This document shows positions 13,260-24,013 of a stretch of 39,732 bases of DNA, piece by piece. Numbering within the stretch: the first letter of the stretch is position 1; every line of letters starts with the position of its first letter. The notes under the pieces were generated by a model that was not told where the DNA came from, ran no database searches, and was given only the letters and a program-made list of their open reading frames with translations. Position numbers and translations under genes: made by a program. This stretch comes from Fluviicola sp. Its GTDB lineage: Bacteria > Bacteroidota > Bacteroidia > Flavobacteriales_D > Crocinitomicaceae. The stretch lies in the NCBI GenBank assembly GCA_021300395.1, contig JAJTEO010000028.1, forward strand, positions 1-39,732, written 5' to 3'.

Positions 13260-15389
13260 ATGGAAAGCTTTTTATCAGAATTAGAAAACCCATTAGTTCA
13301 AAAAGATATTATTGAATTAGGAGAGAAAATTGCAGCTTATAAAAGTGGAGAATTGAATGAAGATAAGTTCAAAGCTTTACGTTTAGCTAGAGGAGTTTAT
13401 GGACAACGTCAGCAAGGTGTTCAAATGATTCGTATTAAACTTCCATTTGGTAGAGTTTCTGCAGATCAGTTAAGAAGGATATGTGATGTTTCAGATGAAT
13501 ATAGTACAGGTAATTTACATATCACAACGCGACAAGATATTCAAATACATTATGTGAGTTTAGATCGAACTCCTCAATTATGGGCTGAGCTGGAAAAAAG
13601 CGATGTGACATTAAGAGAAGCGTGTGGAAATACAGTAAGAAATGTAACAGCAAGTCCATTAGCAGGTATCGATAAAAATGAACCGTTTGATGTTGCACCA
13701 TACGCTGATTTAGTTTTTAGATACTTTTTAAGAAAACCATTTGGACAAGAATTAGGTCGAAAAATTAAGATTGCTTTTAGTTCAAATGATTTAGATGATG
13801 CATTTACATTTATACATGATTTTGGATTTATTCCTAAAATCGAAACTAAATCAGGAGTTGAGGTTAAAGGATTTAAAGTTTTGATTGGTGGTGGATTAGG
13901 GGCTCAGCCGTTTTTAGCGAAAGTTGGATATGAGTTTTTACCTGAAGAAGAATTAATTTCATTTTTGGAAGCTGCAGTTAGAGTTTTTGATAGACATGGA
14001 GAGCGTAATTCAAGACATAAAGCAAGGATAAAATATTTAATTGCTAAAGTAGGAATTGAAGAGTTTTTGAGTTTAGTAGAAGCTGAAAGAAAAGCGATTC
14101 AATACCAAGCTGAAGATTTCGTTTTGATTCCTCAAGGTGAATTTAATGAAGCTCCAAAGTTTATACTTTCAAAAGAAGAAGTTTTGAATGACATTGAAGA
14201 TGCTGATTTCAAAAAATGGGTTGAAACAAATGTAGTTGAACAAAAACAAGCTGGATATTTTGCTGCTTTCGTAAAAGTATTGATTGGAAATTTCACAACT
14301 GAACAAGCAAGAAAATTAGCTTTAATTATAGAAAAATATACATCAGACGAAGCAAGGTTTACAATTGATCAAAGTGTTTTGTTAAAGTATATCTTACCAG
14401 AGAATTTGAAAGCTGTTTATGATGGATTAAAAGAAATTAATTTACATAAATCTGGTTATAATAGTGTGGCTGATGTTACAGCTTGTCCTGGAACAGATAC
14501 GTGTAATTTGGGGATTTCAGACTCAACTCATGTTGCAAAAGTGATTGAACAATTAATTCAAGATGAGTACCCTGAATTTATTTATAATCAAGAGATTAAA
14601 ATAAAAATAAGTGGTTGTATGAATTCATGTGGTCAGCATGGTTTGGCACACATTGGATTCCATGGTAGTTCTCAAAAGGTAAATGGATTAACAGTTCCTG
14701 CTTTACAAGTATTATTAGGTGGAGGTAAACTAGGAAATGGATTTGGAAGAATTGCTGAAAAAGTAATTAAAATCCCAAGCAAAAGAGTTTTAGATATCAT
14801 TCGTTATTTATTGAATGATTACTCAGAGAACCAACTAGGAGATGAATTGTTTAATGAATATTATGACAGACAAGGAAATAAGTATTTCTATGATTTATTA
14901 AAACCTTTGGCTGATACAACAACATTAAAACCAGAAGATTTTATCGATTGGGGACAAACAGAGCAATTCAAGACAGAAATTGGAGTTGGAGAATGTGCTG
15001 GGGTATTAATTGATTTAGTTTCAACCTTGTTTTATGATGCAGAAGAAAAATTGGATGCAGCTAAAACTTCTTTAAGTGAAGGACGATTTGCTGATGCAAT
15101 TTATCAATCATATGCTTCTGGAATTCATACAGCTAAAGGATTGTTACTTCAAGCAAAGGTTCATTGTAATACACAGTCAGGAATTATTTCTGATTTTGAT
15201 AAAAACTTTGAAAATCAATTTCAATTTGAGGGATATGAAAACTTTACAGATTTTATACTACAAATCAATAAAAATGAACCTTCAGAAGTCTTTGCACTTG
15301 ATTATAATAAACGAATGCAAAACCTCTTAAATGAGGCCATAAAATACCGTTCAACTTTATTAACAATTGTTGAAAACGAAAAAGCATAA
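13260..15389 (+). CDS. Siroheme sulfite (or nitrite) reductase with C-terminal HEPN-like domain
   Basis: Reduces sulfite to sulfide with six electrons in assimilation. The N-terminal half-domain has YGQRQQGVQMIRIKLPFGRV and the substrate-site segment NLHITTRQDIQIHYV. RKIKIAFSSND provides the lysines expected near the siroheme. The 4Fe-4S/siroheme ligands are Cys409 and Cys415 (CPGTDTC) and Cys453 and Cys457 (CMNSC). Residues of about 560-709 form an extra helical tail (ECAGVLIDLVSTLFYDAEEK, then SYASGIHTAKGLLLQAKVHC) that looks like a HEPN domain, as in related Bacteroidota proteins of about 700 residues. The family also contains nitrite reductases; the operon argues for sulfite. No flavoprotein CysJ is present, so a ferredoxin or flavodoxin donor is likely. 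First gene after the attenuator. Confidence 0.9.
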   Translation: MESFLSELENPLVQKDIIELGEKIAAYKSGELNEDKFKALRLARGVYGQRQQGVQMIRIKLPFGRVSADQLRRICDVSDEYSTGNLHITTRQDIQIHYVSLDRTPQLWAELEKSDVTLREACGNTVRNVTASPLAGIDKNEPFDVAPYADLVFRYFLRKPFGQELGRKIKIAFSSNDLDDAFTFIHDFGFIPKIETKSGVEVKGFKVLIGGGLGAQPFLAKVGYEFLPEEELISFLEAAVRVFDRHGERNSRHKARIKYLIAKVGIEEFLSLVEAERKAIQYQAEDFVLIPQGEFNEAPKFILSKEEVLNDIEDADFKKWVETNVVEQKQAGYFAAFVKVLIGNFTTEQARKLALIIEKYTSDEARFTIDQSVLLKYILPENLKAVYDGLKEINLHKSGYNSVADVTACPGTDTCNLGISDSTHVAKVIEQLIQDEYPEFIYNQEIKIKISGCMNSCGQHGLAHIGFHGSSQKVNGLTVPALQVLLGGGKLGNGFGRIAEKVIKIPSKRVLDIIRYLLNDYSENQLGDELFNEYYDRQGNKYFYDLLKPLADTTTLKPEDFIDWGQTEQFKTEIGVGECAGVLIDLVSTLFYDAEEKLDAAKTSLSEGRFADAIYQSYASGIHTAKGLLLQAKVHCNTQSGIISDFDKNFENQFQFEGYENFTDFILQINKNEPSEVFALDYNKRMQNLLNEAIKYRSTLLTIVENEKA

Positions 15390-15497: not shown

Positions 15498-16271
15498 ATG
15501 AATACAAATAGACAAAATAATCCGAAAGTTACATTGGTTGGTGCTGGTCCTGGTGACATTGAATTGTTAACTATTAAAGGTTTGAAAGCAATTCAAAAAG
15601 CAGATGTAATATTGTATGATGCTTTGGTTAATGAAGAGTTGTTAAATGAAGCGCCAAACGCAGAAAAGATTTTTGTAGGAAAAAGAAGAGGTTTTAAAGC
15701 ATATTCTCAAGAAGAAATCAATCGATTAATTGTGGACAAGGCTTTTTTAAGTGGAAATGTTGTTCGATTAAAAGGTGGAGATTCGTTCGTTTTTGGAAGA
15801 GGCTCTGAAGAATTACACTACGTTGAAGCTTTTGGGATTGAAACGGAAGTAATTCCAGGTATATCAAGTTCAATTTCAGTACCTGCTTTAGCTGGGATTC
15901 CAGTAACTCATAGAGGAGTTAGTAATAGTTTCTTTGTTTTATCTGGAACTTTATCAAATGGTGAATTAAATCCAGAAATTAAAGTAGCGACTAAATCTTC
16001 TGGGACGGTCGTTATATTAATGGGGATTTCTAAATTGAACGAGATAGTTGATATTTATAAAAAATACGGAAAAGAGAACGAAGCAATCGCAATTATTTAT
16101 AACGGTTCATTACCTTCACAATCAACTGTTGTTGGAACAATTGATTCGATTTCTGAAATCGCTGAAGCAAATAAAAATTCTGGTCCAGGAATTATAGTAA
16201 TTGGTTCAGTGGTTGAAATTTCAGCAATTTATAATGACAGCAGTTATTTATTTGAGAAAATAGTACTGTAA
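15498..16271 (+). CDS. cobA: Uroporphyrinogen-III C-methyltransferase
   Basis: SAM-dependent double methylation of uroporphyrinogen III to precorrin-2, the first committed step to siroheme, the cofactor of the sulfite reductase encoded upstream. The motifs are typical: TLVGAGPGDIELLT at 12-25, DVILYDALVN, VRLKGGDSFVFGRGSEE, and VIPGISSSISVPALAGIPVTHRG. At 257 residues it is a stand-alone CobA/SUMT. The dehydrogenase and ferrochelatase steps are supplied by the CysG-like half of the fusion two genes on. A 108-bp gap separates it from the sulfite reductase gene, with only a weak hairpin and no promoter element; its stop abuts the next ATG directly. Confidence 0.94.
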   Translation: MNTNRQNNPKVTLVGAGPGDIELLTIKGLKAIQKADVILYDALVNEELLNEAPNAEKIFVGKRRGFKAYSQEEINRLIVDKAFLSGNVVRLKGGDSFVFGRGSEELHYVEAFGIETEVIPGISSSISVPALAGIPVTHRGVSNSFFVLSGTLSNGELNPEIKVATKSSGTVVILMGISKLNEIVDIYKKYGKENEAIAIIYNGSLPSQSTVVGTIDSISEIAEANKNSGPGIIVIGSVVEISAIYNDSSYLFEKIVL

Positions 16272-16958
16272 ATGAAGATTTTAATTTTGTTTCTTTTCTT
16301 GATTTCAAATTCATTAGTTAATTGTCAAATCGAAAAGTATGAGAAAAACACTTGGTTTTCATTTGTTTGGAGACATACTTTCAATAACTATGTTCAATTG
16401 ACTTCTGATATTGGTTATAGAATGTATGATGATTTTTTGGGTGCTAGGAGACAAGATTTAATTAGAGTTTTACTTGAGAGGTCTTATGATCGAAATCAAA
16501 TTGGATTAGGATTAGCATATTTTGAAACCGTTAAAAAAGGAACAAATATTTTTGAACCCGAAAAGAGATTTTTTTTCAATTATAATTATCAAAAAAGTAT
16601 TAATGGATTGTTATATAATTTAAGAATAAGAGATGAACTAAGATATTATTCAACAAAATCACAATTAGATAATCGAATTCGTTTAATGCTAAGTGTTGAT
16701 TATGATAATGAAATTAAATGGTTTCGTCCAAGAATCTCTTGTGAAGGTTTTTTAACAACGACTCAGAAAAATAATTTTGAACAAAGATATACAGTTGGAA
16801 ATCAATTTTATATTAATACATTATTTCGTTTGTATTTGTTTTATACACTTCAATTACAGTCGAAATTAACAGATGAAAATCGTTTTGTTAATCAAAATAT
16901 TATAGGTTTTCAGTTAATTTTAAATACTTTTAATAAAAATGAAAACAAAAGCAAATAA
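16272..16958 (+). CDS. DUF2490 family outer-membrane-type protein
   Basis: A 228-residue protein with a signal peptide (MKILILFLFLISNSLVNCQ) and alternating aromatic/polar beta-strands through its length: WFSFVWRHTFNNYVQLTSDIGYRMYDDF, RRDLI-type turns, and a closing IIGFQLILNTF. This is the pattern of DUF2490, predicted small beta-barrels. Its ATG follows the cobA stop without a gap and its 3' end overlaps the next gene by 20 nt, so it belongs firmly to the operon. Its role in sulfur assimilation is unknown; an outer-membrane route for a sulfur source is one possibility (inference). Confidence 0.75.
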   Translation: MKILILFLFLISNSLVNCQIEKYEKNTWFSFVWRHTFNNYVQLTSDIGYRMYDDFLGARRQDLIRVLLERSYDRNQIGLGLAYFETVKKGTNIFEPEKRFFFNYNYQKSINGLLYNLRIRDELRYYSTKSQLDNRIRLMLSVDYDNEIKWFRPRISCEGFLTTTQKNNFEQRYTVGNQFYINTLFRLYLFYTLQLQSKLTDENRFVNQNIIGFQLILNTFNKNENKSK

Positions 16959-18432
16959 TGAGTTATTTCCAGTTTTTTTAAAACTGAATGACTTAAATGT
17001 TTTAATAATAGGTGGTGGAAAAATAGGCTTAGAGAAATTGAGTTCTGTTTTATTAAATTCTCCTTTAAGTAGAGTTAAAGTTGTTGCTATTTCCTTCATA
17101 GATGAGTTGAAACAATTCGTTGAATCTTATCCTTTAGTTGAATTGATTGAATCTGAGTTCAAAGATGAACATTTAGAAGGGATTCAAATTGTTATTTCTG
17201 CCTTGAATAATGTTGAATTATCCGAGCAGATTAAAATAAAAGCAAATCAGAAAGGGATATTATATAATGCTGCTGATAAACCTGAATTGTGTGATTTTTT
17301 CTTAAGTTCAATTGTGACAAAGGGAGATTTAAAGATTGGTATTTCTACAAATGGCAAATCACCGACAATGGCAAAAAGGATTAAAGAAACATTGAATTAT
17401 GCAATTCCAGATGAAACTGATGATGTAATTCAAAATTTGAATAAAATTCGAAATTCTTTAAAAGGAGATTTTGATTATAAAGTAAAAACATTGAATGAAA
17501 TAACTAAGGATTTTCAAAAGCCGTTAAATGAAAAATCTACACTTAAAAGAATGAAATCGGTTGCGTTTTATTCATTATTAGTTATTTCTAGTATGGTTAT
17601 CGGTCATTTACTTTTGTCATACATTCCTTTTGAAAGTTTAAAAGAATTAAGTGCTGATATTGTTTCGAAGTTAGATTTGAATTTTGGATGGTTTTTGTTA
17701 ATTGGATTTGTTGCTCAGATGGTCGATGGCGCGCTAGGAATGGCTTATGGGGTTTCAGTAACAACTTTTTTGATGAGTTTAGGTATTCCGTCAATTACGC
17801 CAGCTGTAGCAAGTGCAAGTATGCATGCATCTGAAATTTTCACAACAGGTTCTTCTTCTTTGGTTTACATGAAATATAAGAATGTAAATAAAAAAATGTT
17901 TAAAGCTTTAGTTTGGCCAGGAGTTATAGGTGCAGTTTTAGGTGTTTTTACTGTTACAATTGTAAGTAAGGAATACTTCTCTATTATTAAGCCTCTTGTT
18001 GCTATTTATACATTGATTTTAGGGATATTAATCATTAAAAAAACGTTTATAAAAAATCAATCTAAAAAGAAAATTAAGAATTTGTACCCAGTAGCTTTGT
18101 CAGGCGGATTTTTAGATTCTGTAGGAGGTGGAGGATGGGGACCAATTGTTACTAGTTCTTTACTAGCGGGAGGAAGACATCTAAGATATGCTATAGGTTC
18201 TGCTCATTTATCCAAGTTTTTTGTAGCTGTAACTAGTACAATTGCATTCTTTTTTACAATTGGATTAAGTCACTGGCAGATAATTTTTGGATTGGTTATA
18301 GGAGGAATGGTTGCTGCACCTTTCTCAATTTATTTTTCTACAAAAATTCCCGTTAAAAAAGGTTTGTTACTTGTAGGAACTTTAATTATCTTAATCAGTT
18401 TAAAAACAATAATTACAAGTATTATAAAATAG
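16939..18432 (+). CDS. Precorrin-2 dehydrogenase/ferrochelatase fused to TSUP (TauE/SafE) permease
   Basis: Two-domain protein of 497 residues. Residues 1 to about 200 match the N-terminal part of CysG/Met8: NVLIIGGGKIGLEKL (20-34) is the NAD-binding Rossmann loop, then VISALNNVELSEQIK, YNAADKPELCDFFLSSIV and GISTNGKSPTMAKRIKE. This oxidises precorrin-2 to sirohydrochlorin and inserts iron. Residues of about 210-497 form a TSUP transporter with about eight helices, including GFVAQMVDGALGMAYGVS, SMHASEIFTTGSSSLVYMK and GGFLDSVGGGGWGPIVTSSL. TSUP proteins carry sulfate, sulfite or other sulfur anions; in an operon with no CysZ or CysTWA the natural guess is sulfate uptake. The reading frame is continuous across the join. 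Confidence 0.87.
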   Translation: MKTKANNELFPVFLKLNDLNVLIIGGGKIGLEKLSSVLLNSPLSRVKVVAISFIDELKQFVESYPLVELIESEFKDEHLEGIQIVISALNNVELSEQIKIKANQKGILYNAADKPELCDFFLSSIVTKGDLKIGISTNGKSPTMAKRIKETLNYAIPDETDDVIQNLNKIRNSLKGDFDYKVKTLNEITKDFQKPLNEKSTLKRMKSVAFYSLLVISSMVIGHLLLSYIPFESLKELSADIVSKLDLNFGWFLLIGFVAQMVDGALGMAYGVSVTTFLMSLGIPSITPAVASASMHASEIFTTGSSSLVYMKYKNVNKKMFKALVWPGVIGAVLGVFTVTIVSKEYFSIIKPLVAIYTLILGILIIKKTFIKNQSKKKIKNLYPVALSGGFLDSVGGGGWGPIVTSSLLAGGRHLRYAIGSAHLSKFFVAVTSTIAFFFTIGLSHWQIIFGLVIGGMVAAPFSIYFSTKIPVKKGLLLVGTLIILISLKTIITSIIK

Positions 18433-18438
18433 AATAAA

Positions 18439-19317
18439 ATGAAAAAAGTATATTTAAGTGATTCAGGACCAGTAACATCAGATTCTATTTATAGTTTTTG
18501 GAGATGGAGTGAAGCTAATGATTTGACTAGTGAGAAAATTGAAGATATTACAAATTACTGTTTAGACTTAGGGATTACAGGATTTGATTTGTCAAACTCA
18601 TATGGACTAGGAAGAGTTGAAGAATTATTCGGAAATGCGATTGCGAATAAATCATTGAAAAGAGATGAATTTGTTTTGTTTTCAAAAGTAGGTTATAAAT
18701 CGAATGATCCTCAAACAGGTAAAATAATTTATAATCAACTGACTGAAAAGTATTTAGTTAAAACAGTTGAAGATTCTTTGAAAAAATTGAATACGGATTA
18801 CATTGATGTTTTATTGTTGAAAGATTATGATCCGTTAATGAAAGCGGAAGAAGTTGTCTCAGCTTTAAACAAGTTAGTGTATAGTGGAAAAGTAAAACAT
18901 ATCGGTATTTCTGATTTCAATGTGTTTGAACATCAATTACTTTCTAATTTGTCTTTGGATATTGTGACAAATCATTTTGAATTGAATTTATTTAATTCAT
19001 CAGCTGTTCATGATGGCCGATTAGCATTTGCTAAGGAGAAATATGTTAAACCAATGGCATGGGCTCCTTTAGCAGACGGAAGAATTTTATACGGACATGA
19101 TAATGAAGCTTTAGCAATTAGAGATATATTAAGCGATATAGCATTAAAGTATGATTCTAATATTGAACAGATTGCTGTTGCATGGATTCATAAATTAGGA
19201 GCTCTTCCAATTATTGGAAGTTTAAATAAAGAAAGAATTAAAAATGCAGCTACAGCTAGTGAAGTTAAACTTTCACATGAAGATTGGCATAGAATATATA
19301 ACGTAACAAGAAAATAA
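18439..19317 (+). CDS. Aldo/keto reductase family protein with altered catalytic His
   Basis: A 292-residue (alpha/beta)8 NADP-dependent oxidoreductase close to the YdhF type. Of the usual Asp-Tyr-Lys-His tetrad, Asp50 and Tyr55 (GFDLSNSYGLGRVEELFG) and Lys83 (LFSKVGY) are present, but the His found in 'LLIHRPDPLM' of relatives is replaced by Lys128 (LLLKDYDPLM). The cofactor site region ALPIIGSLNKERI is kept. So it may have altered activity or a binding role. It lies 6 nt after the TSUP fusion and 2 nt before cysH, deep within the operon. No step of sulfate assimilation needs such an enzyme, and its substrate is unknown. Confidence 0.85.
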   Translation: MKKVYLSDSGPVTSDSIYSFWRWSEANDLTSEKIEDITNYCLDLGITGFDLSNSYGLGRVEELFGNAIANKSLKRDEFVLFSKVGYKSNDPQTGKIIYNQLTEKYLVKTVEDSLKKLNTDYIDVLLLKDYDPLMKAEEVVSALNKLVYSGKVKHIGISDFNVFEHQLLSNLSLDIVTNHFELNLFNSSAVHDGRLAFAKEKYVKPMAWAPLADGRILYGHDNEALAIRDILSDIALKYDSNIEQIAVAWIHKLGALPIIGSLNKERIKNAATASEVKLSHEDWHRIYNVTRK

Positions 19318-20068: not shown

Positions 20069-20974
20069 ATGAGTAAAATAAATTATTTAGATGAATTAGA
20101 AGCAGAAGCAATTTACATTTTACGTGAAGTTGCTGGTCAATTTGATCGTCCTGCTTTATTATTTAGTGGTGGTAAAGATAGTATCTGCTTAGTTCATTTG
20201 GCGCTTAAAGCATTTCGTCCTGGTAAATTCCCATTTCCATTAGTACATGTAGATACGGGGCACAATGCACCTGAAGTAATTGCATACAGAGATCAATTAG
20301 CTGAAAAGTTAGGTGAAAAATTAATTGTTCGTAAAGTAGAAGATACAATCAAAGAAAGAAATCTTCAAGATGGAAAAGGAAAATTCCCAAGTAGAAATCC
20401 TTTACAAACGTATACTTTACTAGATACAATTGAAGAATTCGAATTTGATGCTTGTATTGGTGGAGCCAGAAGAGATGAAGAGAAAGCAAGAGCAAAAGAG
20501 CGTATTTTCTCAGTAAGAGATGAGTTTGGACAATGGGATCCTAAAAAACAACGTCCTGAGTTATGGAATATCTATAATGGTAAAATTGATAAAGGTGAAA
20601 ACGTTCGTGTATTTCCAATCAGTAATTGGACTGAATTAGATGTTTGGAATTACATTCAACGTGAAAAAATTGAATTACCTTCTATCTATTTTACACATGC
20701 TAGAGAATGTATCTTAACAGAGCAAGGTCAATTAATGGCAACGAATGAATTTGTTGAAATTGATGAAGATGATGTTATTGTAACAAGAAATGTTCGTTAC
20801 AGAACAGTAGGAGATATGACATGTACAGCAGCTGTTGAAAGTGAAGCATATACAGTTGAAGAAATCATCGCTGAATTGAAAGACACTAAAATCAGTGAAA
20901 GAGGCGCTACACGTATGGACGACCGTATCTCAGAAGCAGCAATGGAAGATAGAAAAAAAGGAGGGTATTTTTAA
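20069..20974 (+). CDS. cysD: Sulfate adenylyltransferase small subunit
   Basis: Catalytic subunit of ATP sulfurylase: makes APS from sulfate and ATP, driven by GTP hydrolysis on CysN. The ATP-binding PP-loop is SGGKDS at 33-38, followed by VHVDTGHNAPEVI; RNPLQTYTLLDTIEEF, GGARRDEEKARAKER and FPISNWTELDVWNYI are family signatures. 301 residues, the normal length. A 68-bp gap with a palindromic repeat separates it from cysH, and 99 bp separate it from cysN, unusually loose for this operon. Confidence 0.97.
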   Translation: MSKINYLDELEAEAIYILREVAGQFDRPALLFSGGKDSICLVHLALKAFRPGKFPFPLVHVDTGHNAPEVIAYRDQLAEKLGEKLIVRKVEDTIKERNLQDGKGKFPSRNPLQTYTLLDTIEEFEFDACIGGARRDEEKARAKERIFSVRDEFGQWDPKKQRPELWNIYNGKIDKGENVRVFPISNWTELDVWNYIQREKIELPSIYFTHARECILTEQGQLMATNEFVEIDEDDVIVTRNVRYRTVGDMTCTAAVESEAYTVEEIIAELKDTKISERGATRMDDRISEAAMEDRKKGGYF

Positions 20975-21073: not shown

Positions 21074-22318
21074 ATGGAATTATTAAGATTTTTTACAGCA
21101 GGTAACGTAGATGATGGGAAAAGTACCCTTATCGGACGATTATTATTTGATAGCAATTCAATTTCAACAGATATCATTGAAACGCTTACAAAACAAAGTA
21201 AAGTGACTGGAGTTGGTGCAGAGATTGATTTAGCTTTGTTAACAGATGGTTTAAGGGCCGAAAGAGAACAAGGAATTACAATTGATGTAGCTTATAAGTA
21301 TTTCAGTACAGATAAACGTAAATTTATCATAGCAGATACACCAGGACATGCTCAATATACGCGTAATATGTTTACAGGAGCTTCAAATGCTGAATTAGCA
21401 ATTATTTTAGTAGATGCTCGTAACGGAATTACTGATCAAACAAAGCGACATAGTATCATTTCATCAATTTTAGGTATTCCTCACGTTTTAGTATGTGTGA
21501 ATAAAATGGATTTAGTGAATTACGACGAGGCGGTATTCAAAAAAATTGAAAGTGATTATTTAGAATTTGCTAAACCTTTGAATATTGGTAAAATTTCATT
21601 TATACCAGCAAGTGCTTTAGCAGGAGATAATGTTGTAACACCATCTGAAAATTTAAGTTGGTTTAAAGGTCCAGCATTGTTACAATTTTTAGAAGAAGTT
21701 GAAATTGTGAAAAATACAGTTGTTTCTGATGCTCGTTTTCAAGTTCAATATGTTGTAAGACCTCAAACAGATGATTTACATGATTACAGAGGTTATGCTG
21801 GAAGTGTTTTATCAGGAAGCTTCAAAGTAGGGGACAAAATTAAGATTCTTCCTTCTGAAAACGAAACTGAAATAACACGCATCGAAAGTAATTTAAAAGA
21901 TGTTACTGAAGCAGGAGCAGGTTTACCCGTAATTTTACATTTGAAAGAAGATTTAGATATAAGTCGTGGAAGTACAATTGTACCAGCAAATCATTTGCCA
22001 TCATTAGAAAAAGAAGTTAATGGAACAATTTGTTGGATGGACAATAGTGCTTATAAACCGGGACAAAAGTTGATTTTTCAACAAAATAGTTTTAGGACGA
22101 AAGCGGTAATCAAAGATATTGAAAGTAAGGTAGATATTCATACTTTTGAGAATTTAGAAAGCGACGGTACTATTTCATTAAATGATTTTTGTAAAGTATT
22201 CATTAAAACTGCTGATGCTGTAAGTTTTGATTCTTACCAGAACAATAGAAAAACAGGAGCTTTTATTTTAATTAATGAAAATACAAATAGTACAGTAGCT
22301 GCTGGTGTAATTGACTAA
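21074..22318 (+). CDS. cysN: Sulfate adenylyltransferase GTPase subunit
   Basis: GTP-driven partner of CysD, an EF-Tu-like translation-factor GTPase. G1 is GNVDDGKST at 10-18, the switch I region has EREQGITIDVAYKYF, G3 is DTPGHAQYTRN, and G4 is NKMD. C-terminal beta-barrel domains follow (VQYVVRPQTDDLHDYRGYAGSV). At 414 residues it is the short form with no fused CysC APS kinase, in line with the APS-type CysH. It starts MELLRFFTAG; relatives often have a few more residues, but none are open here. Confidence 0.97.
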   Translation: MELLRFFTAGNVDDGKSTLIGRLLFDSNSISTDIIETLTKQSKVTGVGAEIDLALLTDGLRAEREQGITIDVAYKYFSTDKRKFIIADTPGHAQYTRNMFTGASNAELAIILVDARNGITDQTKRHSIISSILGIPHVLVCVNKMDLVNYDEAVFKKIESDYLEFAKPLNIGKISFIPASALAGDNVVTPSENLSWFKGPALLQFLEEVEIVKNTVVSDARFQVQYVVRPQTDDLHDYRGYAGSVLSGSFKVGDKIKILPSENETEITRIESNLKDVTEAGAGLPVILHLKEDLDISRGSTIVPANHLPSLEKEVNGTICWMDNSAYKPGQKLIFQQNSFRTKAVIKDIESKVDIHTFENLESDGTISLNDFCKVFIKTADAVSFDSYQNNRKTGAFILINENTNSTVAAGVID

Positions 22319-22328
22319 AAGTTTATAG

Positions 22329-23129
22329 ATGAAAACATTGATTGAAGAGTTATACGAAATTCACAAGGAAAAGACAGTTTTACCTGCACCTTTGTTGGTT
22401 AATAATTTTATTGAAACTCTTTTTTCAATTCTTTTTCCTACCTATAATAACAAGACATTTGCAAATAAAGAAAAATTGGAAGAAGAGTATGCTAAAAACA
22501 AAGAGCAACTTTCGATTTTATTATTACATGTTAAAGATTATCTAAACGAAGATGTAGATGCTTTTGTTGAAAAATTTTATGATAAATTACCTCTGATTTA
22601 CAAATGTTTAATTGATGATGCGGATGCAATTGAATCAGGAGATCCGGCTGCAACGAATAGGGATGAAGTCATTCGATCTTATCCAGGATTCTATGCAATT
22701 GCGATTTTCAGAATTGCACATTTTCTATATGATTTAAAAATTCCATTTATTCCAAGAATATTAACCGAAATTGCTCACAGTAAGACAGGAATTGATATTC
22801 ATCCAGGTGCAACAATAGGAAAATCATTTTTTATTGATCATGGAACAGGAATTGTTATTGGAGAAACGACTGTAATTGGTAACTTTGTCAAAATTTATCA
22901 AGGAGTTACATTAGGAGCTTTAAGTGTAAAGAAAGAATTAGCAGATACAAAACGACATCCAACTATTGAAGATCATGTAGTGATCTATGCAGGAGCGACA
23001 ATTTTAGGAGGACGAACAGTGATAGGCAAAAATTCAACCATTGGAGGAAATGTTTGGTTGACAAAGAGTGTGAAAGAAAATTCATTGGTATATCAGAATG
23101 TTGATATCACAATTGATGAAAAAAAATAG
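22329..23129 (+). CDS. cysE: Serine O-acetyltransferase (EpsC/CysE)
   Basis: Acetylates L-serine with acetyl-CoA to O-acetylserine, the acceptor for sulfide. The N-terminal helical domain is followed by the left-handed parallel beta-helix: HPGATIGKSFFIDHGTGIVIGETTVIG, VKIYQGVTLGAL, HPTIEDHVVIYAGATILGG, TIGGNVWL. The acidic/His active-site block DIHPGATIG and the IDHGTG stretch are intact. 266 residues, the length usual for the EpsC-like form in Bacteroidota. It sits 10 nt after cysN and 2 nt before cysM, so this end of the operon is tightly coupled. Confidence 0.94.
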   Translation: MKTLIEELYEIHKEKTVLPAPLLVNNFIETLFSILFPTYNNKTFANKEKLEEEYAKNKEQLSILLLHVKDYLNEDVDAFVEKFYDKLPLIYKCLIDDADAIESGDPAATNRDEVIRSYPGFYAIAIFRIAHFLYDLKIPFIPRILTEIAHSKTGIDIHPGATIGKSFFIDHGTGIVIGETTVIGNFVKIYQGVTLGALSVKKELADTKRHPTIEDHVVIYAGATILGGRTVIGKNSTIGGNVWLTKSVKENSLVYQNVDITIDEKK

Positions 23130-23131
23130 AG

Positions 23132-24013
23132 ATGGCAAAATTGATCGATTTTATTGGAAATACACCTTTAGTTGAACTTTCAGTTGTGAACCAAAATCCT
23201 AATGTAAAACTTTATGGTAAATTGGAAGGTCACAATCCTGGAGGAAGTGTTAAGGATAGAGCAGCTTATGGTTTAATTAAAGGAGGAATTGATAGTGGAC
23301 TTATTAAGCCCGATTCAAAATTAATTGAAGCGACTAGTGGGAATACAGGAATAGCCTTAGCTATGATTGCTCGTTTAATGAAATTGGAGATTGAAATTGT
23401 TATGCCTGAAAACTCTACAAGAGAAAGGGTGTTGACAATGAGAGCTTTTGGAGCAACTGTTACTTTGACTCCGGCTGAAGGAGGAATGGAAGCAGCGATT
23501 GATTATGCGAGAGAAAAGGTAGAAAAAGAAGGGTTTGTTATGTTGGATCAATTTGGGAATCAAAACAATCCAAATATGCATTACAAAACTACTGGTCCTG
23601 AAATTTACAGAGATACAAATGGAGAAGTAACTCATTTTGTATCTGCAATGGGAACAACAGGAACTATAATGGGAGTTTCTTCTTATTTGAAAGAACAAAA
23701 TAGTACTATTCAAATAGTAGGAGTTCAGCCAGAGGATGGAGCGAAAATACCTGGAATCAGAAAATGGCCAAAAGAGTATTTGCCAAAAATATTTGATGCT
23801 TCTCGAGTAGATCAGCTAATTGAAGTTTCAGAAGAAGAAGCAAAAGAAATGGCTAAGCGATTAGCAAGAGAAGAAGGTGTTTTTTCAGGAATGAGTAGTG
23901 GAGGTGCAGTTGCAGCAGCCTTGAAATTAATACCTACTATTGAAAAAGGAACTGTAGTATGTATCATATGCGACAGAGGAGACAAATATTTATCTACAGA
24001 TTTGTTTGAATAA
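23132..24013 (+). CDS. cysM: Cysteine synthase (CysM type)
   Basis: PLP enzyme joining O-acetylserine and sulfide (or thiosulfate) to give cysteine, the end product of the operon. The PLP lysine is Lys41 in NPGGSVKDRAA; the substrate loop is EATSGNTGIALAMIARL; the phosphate-binding Gly/Thr loop is SAMGTTGTIMGVS. MPENSTRERVLTMRAFGATV and EGGMEAAIDYA resemble CysM more than CysK, so thiosulfate use is possible. 293 residues, complete. Confidence 0.93.
   Translation: MAKLIDFIGNTPLVELSVVNQNPNVKLYGKLEGHNPGGSVKDRAAYGLIKGGIDSGLIKPDSKLIEATSGNTGIALAMIARLMKLEIEIVMPENSTRERVLTMRAFGATVTLTPAEGGMEAAIDYAREKVEKEGFVMLDQFGNQNNPNMHYKTTGPEIYRDTNGEVTHFVSAMGTTGTIMGVSSYLKEQNSTIQIVGVQPEDGAKIPGIRKWPKEYLPKIFDASRVDQLIEVSEEEAKEMAKRLAREEGVFSGMSSGGAVAAALKLIPTIEKGTVVCIICDRGDKYLSTDLFE

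Follow-up and report, generated by a model that had tools for sequence, protein, structure and literature searches.

Two groups of described proteins come closest to the gene reported here. The first comprises Met8p, SirC and the N-terminal half of CysG, in which a uroporphyrinogen-III C-methyltransferase (SUMT) half occupies the C terminus; SUMT (CobA) carries out the step of siroheme synthesis that precedes the Met8-type enzyme. The second is the TSUP, or TauE/SafE, family of transporters (PF01925; TC 2.A.102), which the relevant part of one report describes as poorly characterized, and which includes CysZ of Corynebacterium glutamicum, a sulfate transporter encoded in the operon for assimilatory sulfate reduction (PMC5840216). 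We describe a gene that joins members of both groups, in a 39,732-nucleotide stretch of DNA (hereafter the window; contig JAJTEO010000028.1) from a metagenome-assembled genome (MAG) of Fluviicola sp. (GCA_021300395.1). In this gene the transporter stands where CysG has its SUMT half, and SUMT is a separate upstream gene. Like C. glutamicum cysZ, the gene lies within an assimilatory operon, and the PF01925 match is common to it and the TSUP family at large. Its TSUP subfamily is nevertheless distinct and conserved, with an extra helix before the TauE domain and a fused, predicted cytosolic enzyme, the likeness to CysZ being one of family and operon.

The fusion is genuine and occurs across one class of Bacteroidota. 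We consider it probable that it joins a working siroheme-finishing enzyme to an inner-membrane TSUP transporter, the TSUP half importing sulfate, the N-terminal half making siroheme, and the link serving co-production and tethering. The fusion, its conserved catalytic residues, its status as sole copy in a genome panel, its context, its decay and its mosaic history are read directly from the sequences; enzyme activity, sulfate as the substrate, the direction of transport, the topology and the reason for the link are what we infer.

A Met8/CysG-N enzyme and a TSUP domain in one reading frame

The initial annotation had proposed that one continuous frame at 16939-18432 joins a Met8/CysG-N enzyme to a TSUP permease, and this is borne out. 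The gene and its parts are as follows.

16939..18432, + strand: Met8/CysG-N + TSUP fusion gene (ATG at 16939, stop at 18432, 497 aa, no internal stop)
16966..17472, + strand: precorrin-2 dehydrogenase/sirohydrochlorin ferrochelatase half, residues ~10-178 (TIGR01470 match, alignment to CysG 1pjq)
17494..17553, + strand: variable linker, residues 186-205 (predicted local distance difference test score, pLDDT, <50 at 192-198; length varies among the aligned fusions)
17554..18432, + strand: TSUP half, composed of an N-terminal helix (~201-228) and the TSUP core (TauE Pfam match at 17695-18405)
17300..18432, + strand: tract in which a diverged homologue appears to have taken the place of the original sequence (left edge ~17300, within 17270-17390; right edge near the stop codon, within 18410-18440)

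Three Pfam domains exceed their curated cut-offs in the 497-residue product: NAD_binding_7 at residues 12-123 (E 4e-21), Sirohm_synth_M at 129-152 (E 1.5e-8) and TauE (PF01925) at 253-489 (E 1.9e-31, 110 bits). The N-terminal half scores 108.7 bits on TIGR01470 (cysG_Nterm; cut-off 62.3), and the Met8/CysG-N profiles TIGR01470, PF13241 and PF14824 all match the fusion above curated cut-offs.

The architecture recurs well beyond the window. A full-length fusion is present in 11 of the 12 searched genomes of the window's genus, its own included, the remaining one (G009, 76% complete) giving no fusion match, and in 14 of the 36 searched genomes of its family, to which G029 adds a full-length decayed version. 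In a class sample of 395 genomes, both halves occur in one frame in at least 45, spread over 11 family codes; this count is a lower bound since no more than three candidates were scored per genome. Forty-four of these fusions have no in-frame stops, and that of G762 carries two. A phylum sample of 395 genomes, for which the stronger matches were listed, contains the fusion in 23, all of which among the matches listed belong to the window's class, and two of which add a twelfth family (f16). The initial annotation had named as contrary evidence that relatives carry the parts as separate genes and that the join is an assembly artefact. The first does occur in some relatives: in loci L078, L079 and L082 the same two proteins are encoded unjoined in the same pathway cluster, in the order TSUP-cysH-cysD-cysN-SiR-SUMT-Met8 (SiR, sulfite reductase), and in L080 the Met8 and TSUP genes are adjacent and in the same frame, interrupted by stop codons. 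A frame or assembly artefact as the source of the fusion itself is ruled out by its recurrence across so many genomes. We found no published description of the fusion in the literature searched, mostly judged by titles and the starts of abstracts, and domain databases may list the architecture.

In a quick tree of Met8 sequences, 57 fused and 4 separate copies fall on one side of a branch with support of 95, and 15 separate copies fall on the other, so that a single origin of the fusion is not excluded. In a similarly quick TSUP tree the fused label requires 12 changes, which recombination, loss or several origins could produce.

As for the enzyme half, it shares domain order, NAD motif, catalytic Asp and fold with Met8p, SirC and the N-terminal half of CysG. 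Its D113 aligns with D104 of Salmonella CysG (1pjq), which we take to be the catalytic aspartate, and the NAD motif is retained as GGGKIG. D113 and the S136-T137-N138 loop show no variation among the 53 canonical fusions aligned, four of the 57 canonical fusion rows being left out of this alignment. When the N-terminal part of an AlphaFold2 model was compared with known folds, CysG chains matched with Z scores of 17.5-19.3 over 166-183 residues, SirC with 16.0 and Met8p with 15.9, and the D104A and D104N structures of CysG were among the matches. We also considered the C-terminal dimerization segment: the TIGR01470 match spans positions 1-166 of the 205 in the profile and no dimerizer Pfam matches the fusion at E<=0.001, and several CysG chains align to model residues up to 195.

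A 57-genome panel includes 26 fusion genomes. In 25 of these, no cysG_Nterm match other than the fused copy was found; the remaining one, G325, carries a decayed fusion as well. Within this panel, a NIR_SIR domain is present in 43 of the 45 genomes with a Met8 above the cut-off, vs. none of the 12 genomes without one. Conservation and co-occurrence indicate selection on the enzyme half in genomes that have a sulfite reductase, and the siroheme half is very probably active.

In five fusions the Met8-like half is diverged and the TSUP half retains E299 and E426. The position of the catalytic Asp holds S in both G387 and G545, F in G029 and N in G337, and falls in a gap in G325, where the second copy is concerned; of the glycine motif, G387 and G337 keep GGG, and G029 has lost it. 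No NIR_SIR match was found in G029, G387 or G337, G325 has a sulfite reductase and a canonical fusion, and G545 was not in that search. Four of the five decayed fusions directly adjoin cysD, cysH or cysN, and that of G325 (L100, 7545-16583) sits among three sulfatase genes, together with PhyH-family and SDR genes. Because the decayed fusions keep their TSUP half, a transporter half can persist after its enzyme half has decayed, and such decay where sulfite reductase is absent amounts to a natural separation of the two functions.

That the Met8 half is mainly a regulatory domain of the transporter, sensing NAD or a tetrapyrrole, is very unlikely in our judgement. Such a role would fit the five fusions in which D113 is lost and E299 and E426 are kept, and the Rossmann part does resemble the KTN/RCK gating domains of potassium transporters (Z ~11); unrelated Rossmann folds, however, reach Z ~11 in the same list, and the NAD motif itself is lost in G029. 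Three further points likewise argue against it: the catalytic residues are invariant in the 53 aligned canonical fusions, none of the panel's 26 fusion genomes has a full Met8 besides the fused copy, and standalone TSUP genes exist.

Company and probable substrate of the transporter half

To follow the transporter half we used a TSUP subfamily profile (A1) of 37 rows and an 80-genome panel, which was picked to cover both fusion-bearing and fusion-free genomes and not drawn at random. A strong A1 match is present in 51 of the 80 genomes (G329, with a weak match of 7e-7, was counted as negative), and 50 of these 51 have CysD. In the 57-genome panel the subfamily occurs in 39 genomes, 38 of which have CysD and 31 a sulfite reductase; it thus persists in genomes without the latter. 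Gene order points the same way, since L124 and L127 read cysD-TSUP-cysN and a standalone TSUP gene directly adjoins cysH or cysN in L078, L079, L082, L123 and L133.

The transporter families compared were SulP, DASS (PF00939) and TauE; CysTWA, E. coli-type CysZ and PiT-type CysP were left out. High-scoring SulP (best E<1e-70) is present in 4 of the 51 TSUP-positive vs. 17 of the 29 TSUP-negative genomes (Fisher p 1.4e-6; p 0.0014 when stratified by family and 0.003 among CysD-positive genomes), p values that are indicative because the cut of 1e-70 was set after the scores had been seen and related genomes are not independent. Neither SulP, even at E<=10, nor DASS has a match in the window's own MAG, whose completeness is 83%. 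The association with CysD and the rarity of high-scoring SulP favor sulfate import over sulfite export, and we regard the TSUP half as the probable route by which sulfate enters the CysDN-CysH pathway. The same role had been put forward in the initial annotation; the company of CysD, retention without sulfite reductase and the negative association with high-scoring SulP speak for it, sulfate as such being deduced from this genomic pattern.

Export of sulfite in the manner of TauE is in our view a doubtful alternative. It would protect the cell from CysH-derived sulfite whenever siroheme or sulfite reductase runs short, and the fused enzyme would tie export to the state of the reductase cofactor. 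The Pfam family does bear the name sulfite exporter TauE/SafE, many clusters have CysH next to the TSUP gene, and both share one cluster in five genomes without a sulfite reductase match. Yet the subfamily tracks CysD more closely than sulfite reductase, the 19-kb locus L124 with its cysD-TSUP-cysN order has no CysH match at E<=1e-5, one decayed fusion is located among sulfatase genes, and the negative association with high-scoring SulP suggests replacement of an importer. It is also unlikely that the TSUP half carries another sulfur anion such as thiosulfate or a sulfonate, or is no anion importer at all, its place in the operon reflecting general sulfur metabolism. The poor characterization of TSUP members (noted in the same part of PMC5840216) leaves room for this, as does the fact that no chain of the PDB matches the subfamily profile by sequence, against which stands its tight linkage to cysD, cysN and cysH, which recurs in several families.

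Several observations weigh against import of sulfate by a fusion with a working enzyme. Some SulP match is found in 78 of the 80 panel genomes, among them five of the panel's six other members of the window's genus, and PF00939 is found in 39 (19 of the 51 TSUP-positive and 20 of the 29 TSUP-negative genomes). The proposal that fusion genomes are without other sulfate transporter families must consequently be rejected as stated; what stands of it is the lack of SulP and DASS matches in the window's own MAG (G000), and even there three further TauE-family genes are present (L001, L003 and L004, on contigs 74, 81 and 68), which the A1 profile places outside the subfamily of the fusion. With these families present, sulfate may have other ways into the cell. 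Fusion and high-scoring SulP occur together in G178, G439 and G447, and the standalone TSUP of G030 lies away from its cysHDN cluster, alongside a high-scoring SulP. CysH, a producer of sulfite, is also found in many TSUP clusters, and the genomes with CysH and no sulfite reductase match (G029, G387, G337, G070 and G151) could need to export sulfite. The two panel genomes with a Met8 and no NIR_SIR domain, G005 (a MAG in 670 contigs) and G128 (which has no CysD match either), both keep a canonical fusion. Lastly, no fusion was found outside the window's class among the matches listed in the 395-genome phylum sample, a search confined to this phylum.

Taking sulfate import as the preferred reading, we propose that the TSUP half would bring in sulfate for the CysDN-CysH pathway, while the cytosolic N-terminal half would convert precorrin-2 to siroheme for the sulfite reductase of the operon. 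The helix ahead of the TSUP core would place the enzyme at the cytosolic face of the membrane, and the link would ensure one-to-one production and tethering to the membrane instead of obligate allostery. Co-production and tethering are preferred because the halves also exist apart, recombine separately, and because the enzyme half decays where sulfite reductase is absent. Beyond homology alone, the fusion is strong evidence tying one TSUP subfamily to assimilatory sulfate reduction, and it offers, in a family with few established substrates, a candidate sulfate importer for many Bacteroidota that can be put to the test.

The five genomes without a NIR_SIR match named above (loci L066, L099, L122, L123 and L133) have CysH, CysD, CysN and the TSUP subfamily, and their sulfite may go to a siroheme-free reductase or to cysteate/sulfonolipid synthesis. 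A search for cysteate synthase (NF053679) as a sulfite sink in the absence of sulfite reductase gave a weak result: the profile matches 65 of 65 genomes, in our reading largely via other pyridoxal-phosphate enzymes, and its cut-off is passed by only three (G079, G372 and G113), all with sulfite reductase. Seven f16 genomes reach 544-552 bits (cut-off 600), four of them without a sulfite reductase match, two outside that search, and one (G266) with the enzyme; as evidence for a sulfite sink these near-cut-off scores are suggestive only, and G029 has no match of this kind. Scanning ten open reading frames at three loci revealed, near the decayed fusions of L099 and L066, type IX secretion genes, an Rrf2-type regulator and a peroxiredoxin, none of them a named sulfonolipid gene, and a literature search on the cysteate/sulfonolipid idea found nothing. 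In G105, which is without the TSUP subfamily, a single gene lies between those for a CitMHS/TrkA-C transporter and CysD.

Mosaic history of the window gene

Within the window's genus, the fusion gene differs sharply from the operon that surrounds it. Compared with loci L142 (genome G010) and L143 (G003), the proteins encoded around it are nearly identical wherever they have a match: SiR 99% (L142 only), SUMT 100%, the aldo/keto reductase (AKR) 99%, CysH 96-98%, CysD 99-100% and CysN 100% (L143 only). The fusion protein itself is 93% identical over residues 1-120, vs. 59% over residues 121-200 and 49-50% in the TSUP half. DNA identity to L012, of the same genus, is 89% over codons 1-120, 61% in the TSUP half and 98% in the next gene (AKR), falling at ~17300 and recovering at about the stop codon. 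Since L012 and L013, also of this genus, are 77, 75, 73 and 71% identical over four segments, the TSUP half is not generally fast-evolving. The window's TSUP half is 70% identical to that of L005 and 68% to that of L144, and its Met8 half groups with its own genus in the Met8 tree. A tree placing the TSUP half within the genus is rejected by the approximately unbiased (AU) test (p 2e-34), the groups for this and the other tree tests having been named after the first tree was seen, which makes the p values optimistic. The transporter half of the window gene thus appears to have been replaced by the version of a distant relative.

Similar discordance is found in three other families. In f101 (L144 vs. 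L145), the other operon proteins are 90-97% identical and residues 1-120 88%, vs. 57% for TSUP; the corresponding values are 74-90% vs. 53% in f80 (L146 vs. L147) and, in the weakest case, 62-79% vs. 55% in f84 (L148 vs. L149). The stretch 121-200 is intermediate (62-68%) in all three pairs, and TSUP-half clades are rejected by the tree test in each of these families. The exchanged types, as grouped by the tree, differ at nearly fixed sites, such as 426 and 344, each occupied by E or K. Exchange of the transporter half alone supplies matched natural pairs, in near-identical operons, for finding the residues that set substrate or coupling.

It is quite unlikely that the mosaic is a chimera of metagenome assembly instead of a product of recombination. 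The genome is indeed a MAG, in 173 contigs and 83% complete, and neither L142 nor L143 has a match for the DUF2490 protein encoded ahead of the fusion, so that the left flank is not wholly conserved and differs as well. The tract stops, however, at about the stop codon, the next gene being 98% identical to L012 in DNA; on its other side codons 1-120 are 89% identical, and the flanking operon proteins are 96-100% identical. The like discordance in three other family pairs and the fact that even the nearest relatives found for the tract are only 68-70% identical in protein also argue for recombination.

More speculatively, and we think it rather unlikely, the fusions could form a cassette system in which the enzyme half stays with its lineage and the transporter half is repeatedly swapped between types differing in membrane charge (E299/E426 vs. 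E299/K426). A swap would retune sulfate import in its affinity or ion coupling, and the siroheme enzyme joined to the transporter, or what decay has left of it, would match import to sulfite-reducing capacity.

Predicted topology and operon surroundings

The AlphaFold2 model of the fusion, built on the 53-row alignment, has a mean pLDDT of 83.4 and a predicted template modelling (pTM) score of 0.55, with a low-confidence linker at 192-198. To orient membrane helices we used the positive-inside rule. Averaged over the 53 fusions, the net charge is +2.5 for the linker, -1.3 after the first helix, +2.7 for 311-321, -0.5 for 343-349, +6.8 for 368-384, +2.2 for 410-416, -0.2 for 438-448 and +2.7 for 465-474. 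This pattern suggests that the enzyme half is cytosolic and is followed by one extra transmembrane helix and a core built of two inverted repeats. The order of the helices, together with the charges, is compatible with four elements per repeat, in which D263/D393 and E299/K426 would take matching places. In the whole-model comparison, the best alignment of the TSUP core (residues 246-495) is with BacA/UppP, an undecaprenyl-pyrophosphate phosphatase (Z 11.3, rmsd 4.4 over 237 residues), a likeness that is within the range of helical bundles and may reflect a common arrangement only.

Position 426 is the predicted repeat counterpart of E299, the window protein having H296/E299 and H423/K426. Among 81 TSUP sequences, the 299/426 pair is E/E in 49, E/K in 20, E/R in 9 and R/E in 3, both positions being changed in none, so that at least one Glu is kept in every sequence. 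K or R at 426 is found in 26 of the 57 fusions and in 3 of the 24 other TSUP sequences; the idea that it is confined to fusions was dropped, as 3 of 19 standalone sequences carry it. We regard 299/426 as a candidate ion-coupling pair.

The cluster runs on one strand in the order SiR-SUMT-DUF2490-fusion-AKR-CysH-CysD-CysN-CysE-CysM, with the following genes around the fusion.

13260..15389, + strand: siroheme-type nitrite/sulfite reductase, NirA-like, below NCBIfam cut-offs, with a C-terminal HEPN match
15498..16271, + strand: uroporphyrinogen-III C-methyltransferase (SUMT/CobA; TIGR01469 264 bits, cut-off 185)
16272..16958, + strand: DUF2490 protein, between SUMT and the fusion, whose start it overlaps by 20 bases
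18439..19317, + strand: aldo/keto reductase (AKR), beginning 6 bases past the fusion stop codon
19320..20000, + strand: CysH, adenylylsulfate/phosphoadenylylsulfate (APS/PAPS) reductase (TIGR02055 243 bits, cut-off 235.3; the cut-offs of TIGR00434 cysH and NF002537 are passed too)
20069..20974, + strand: CysD, sulfate adenylyltransferase small subunit (profile match)
21074..22318, + strand: CysN, sulfate adenylyltransferase large subunit (profile match)
22329..23129, + strand: serine O-acetyltransferase of the EpsC/CysE type (profile match)
23132..24013, + strand: cysteine synthase CysM (profile match)

The HEPN match of the sulfite/nitrite reductase covers residues 589-651, at its C-terminal end.

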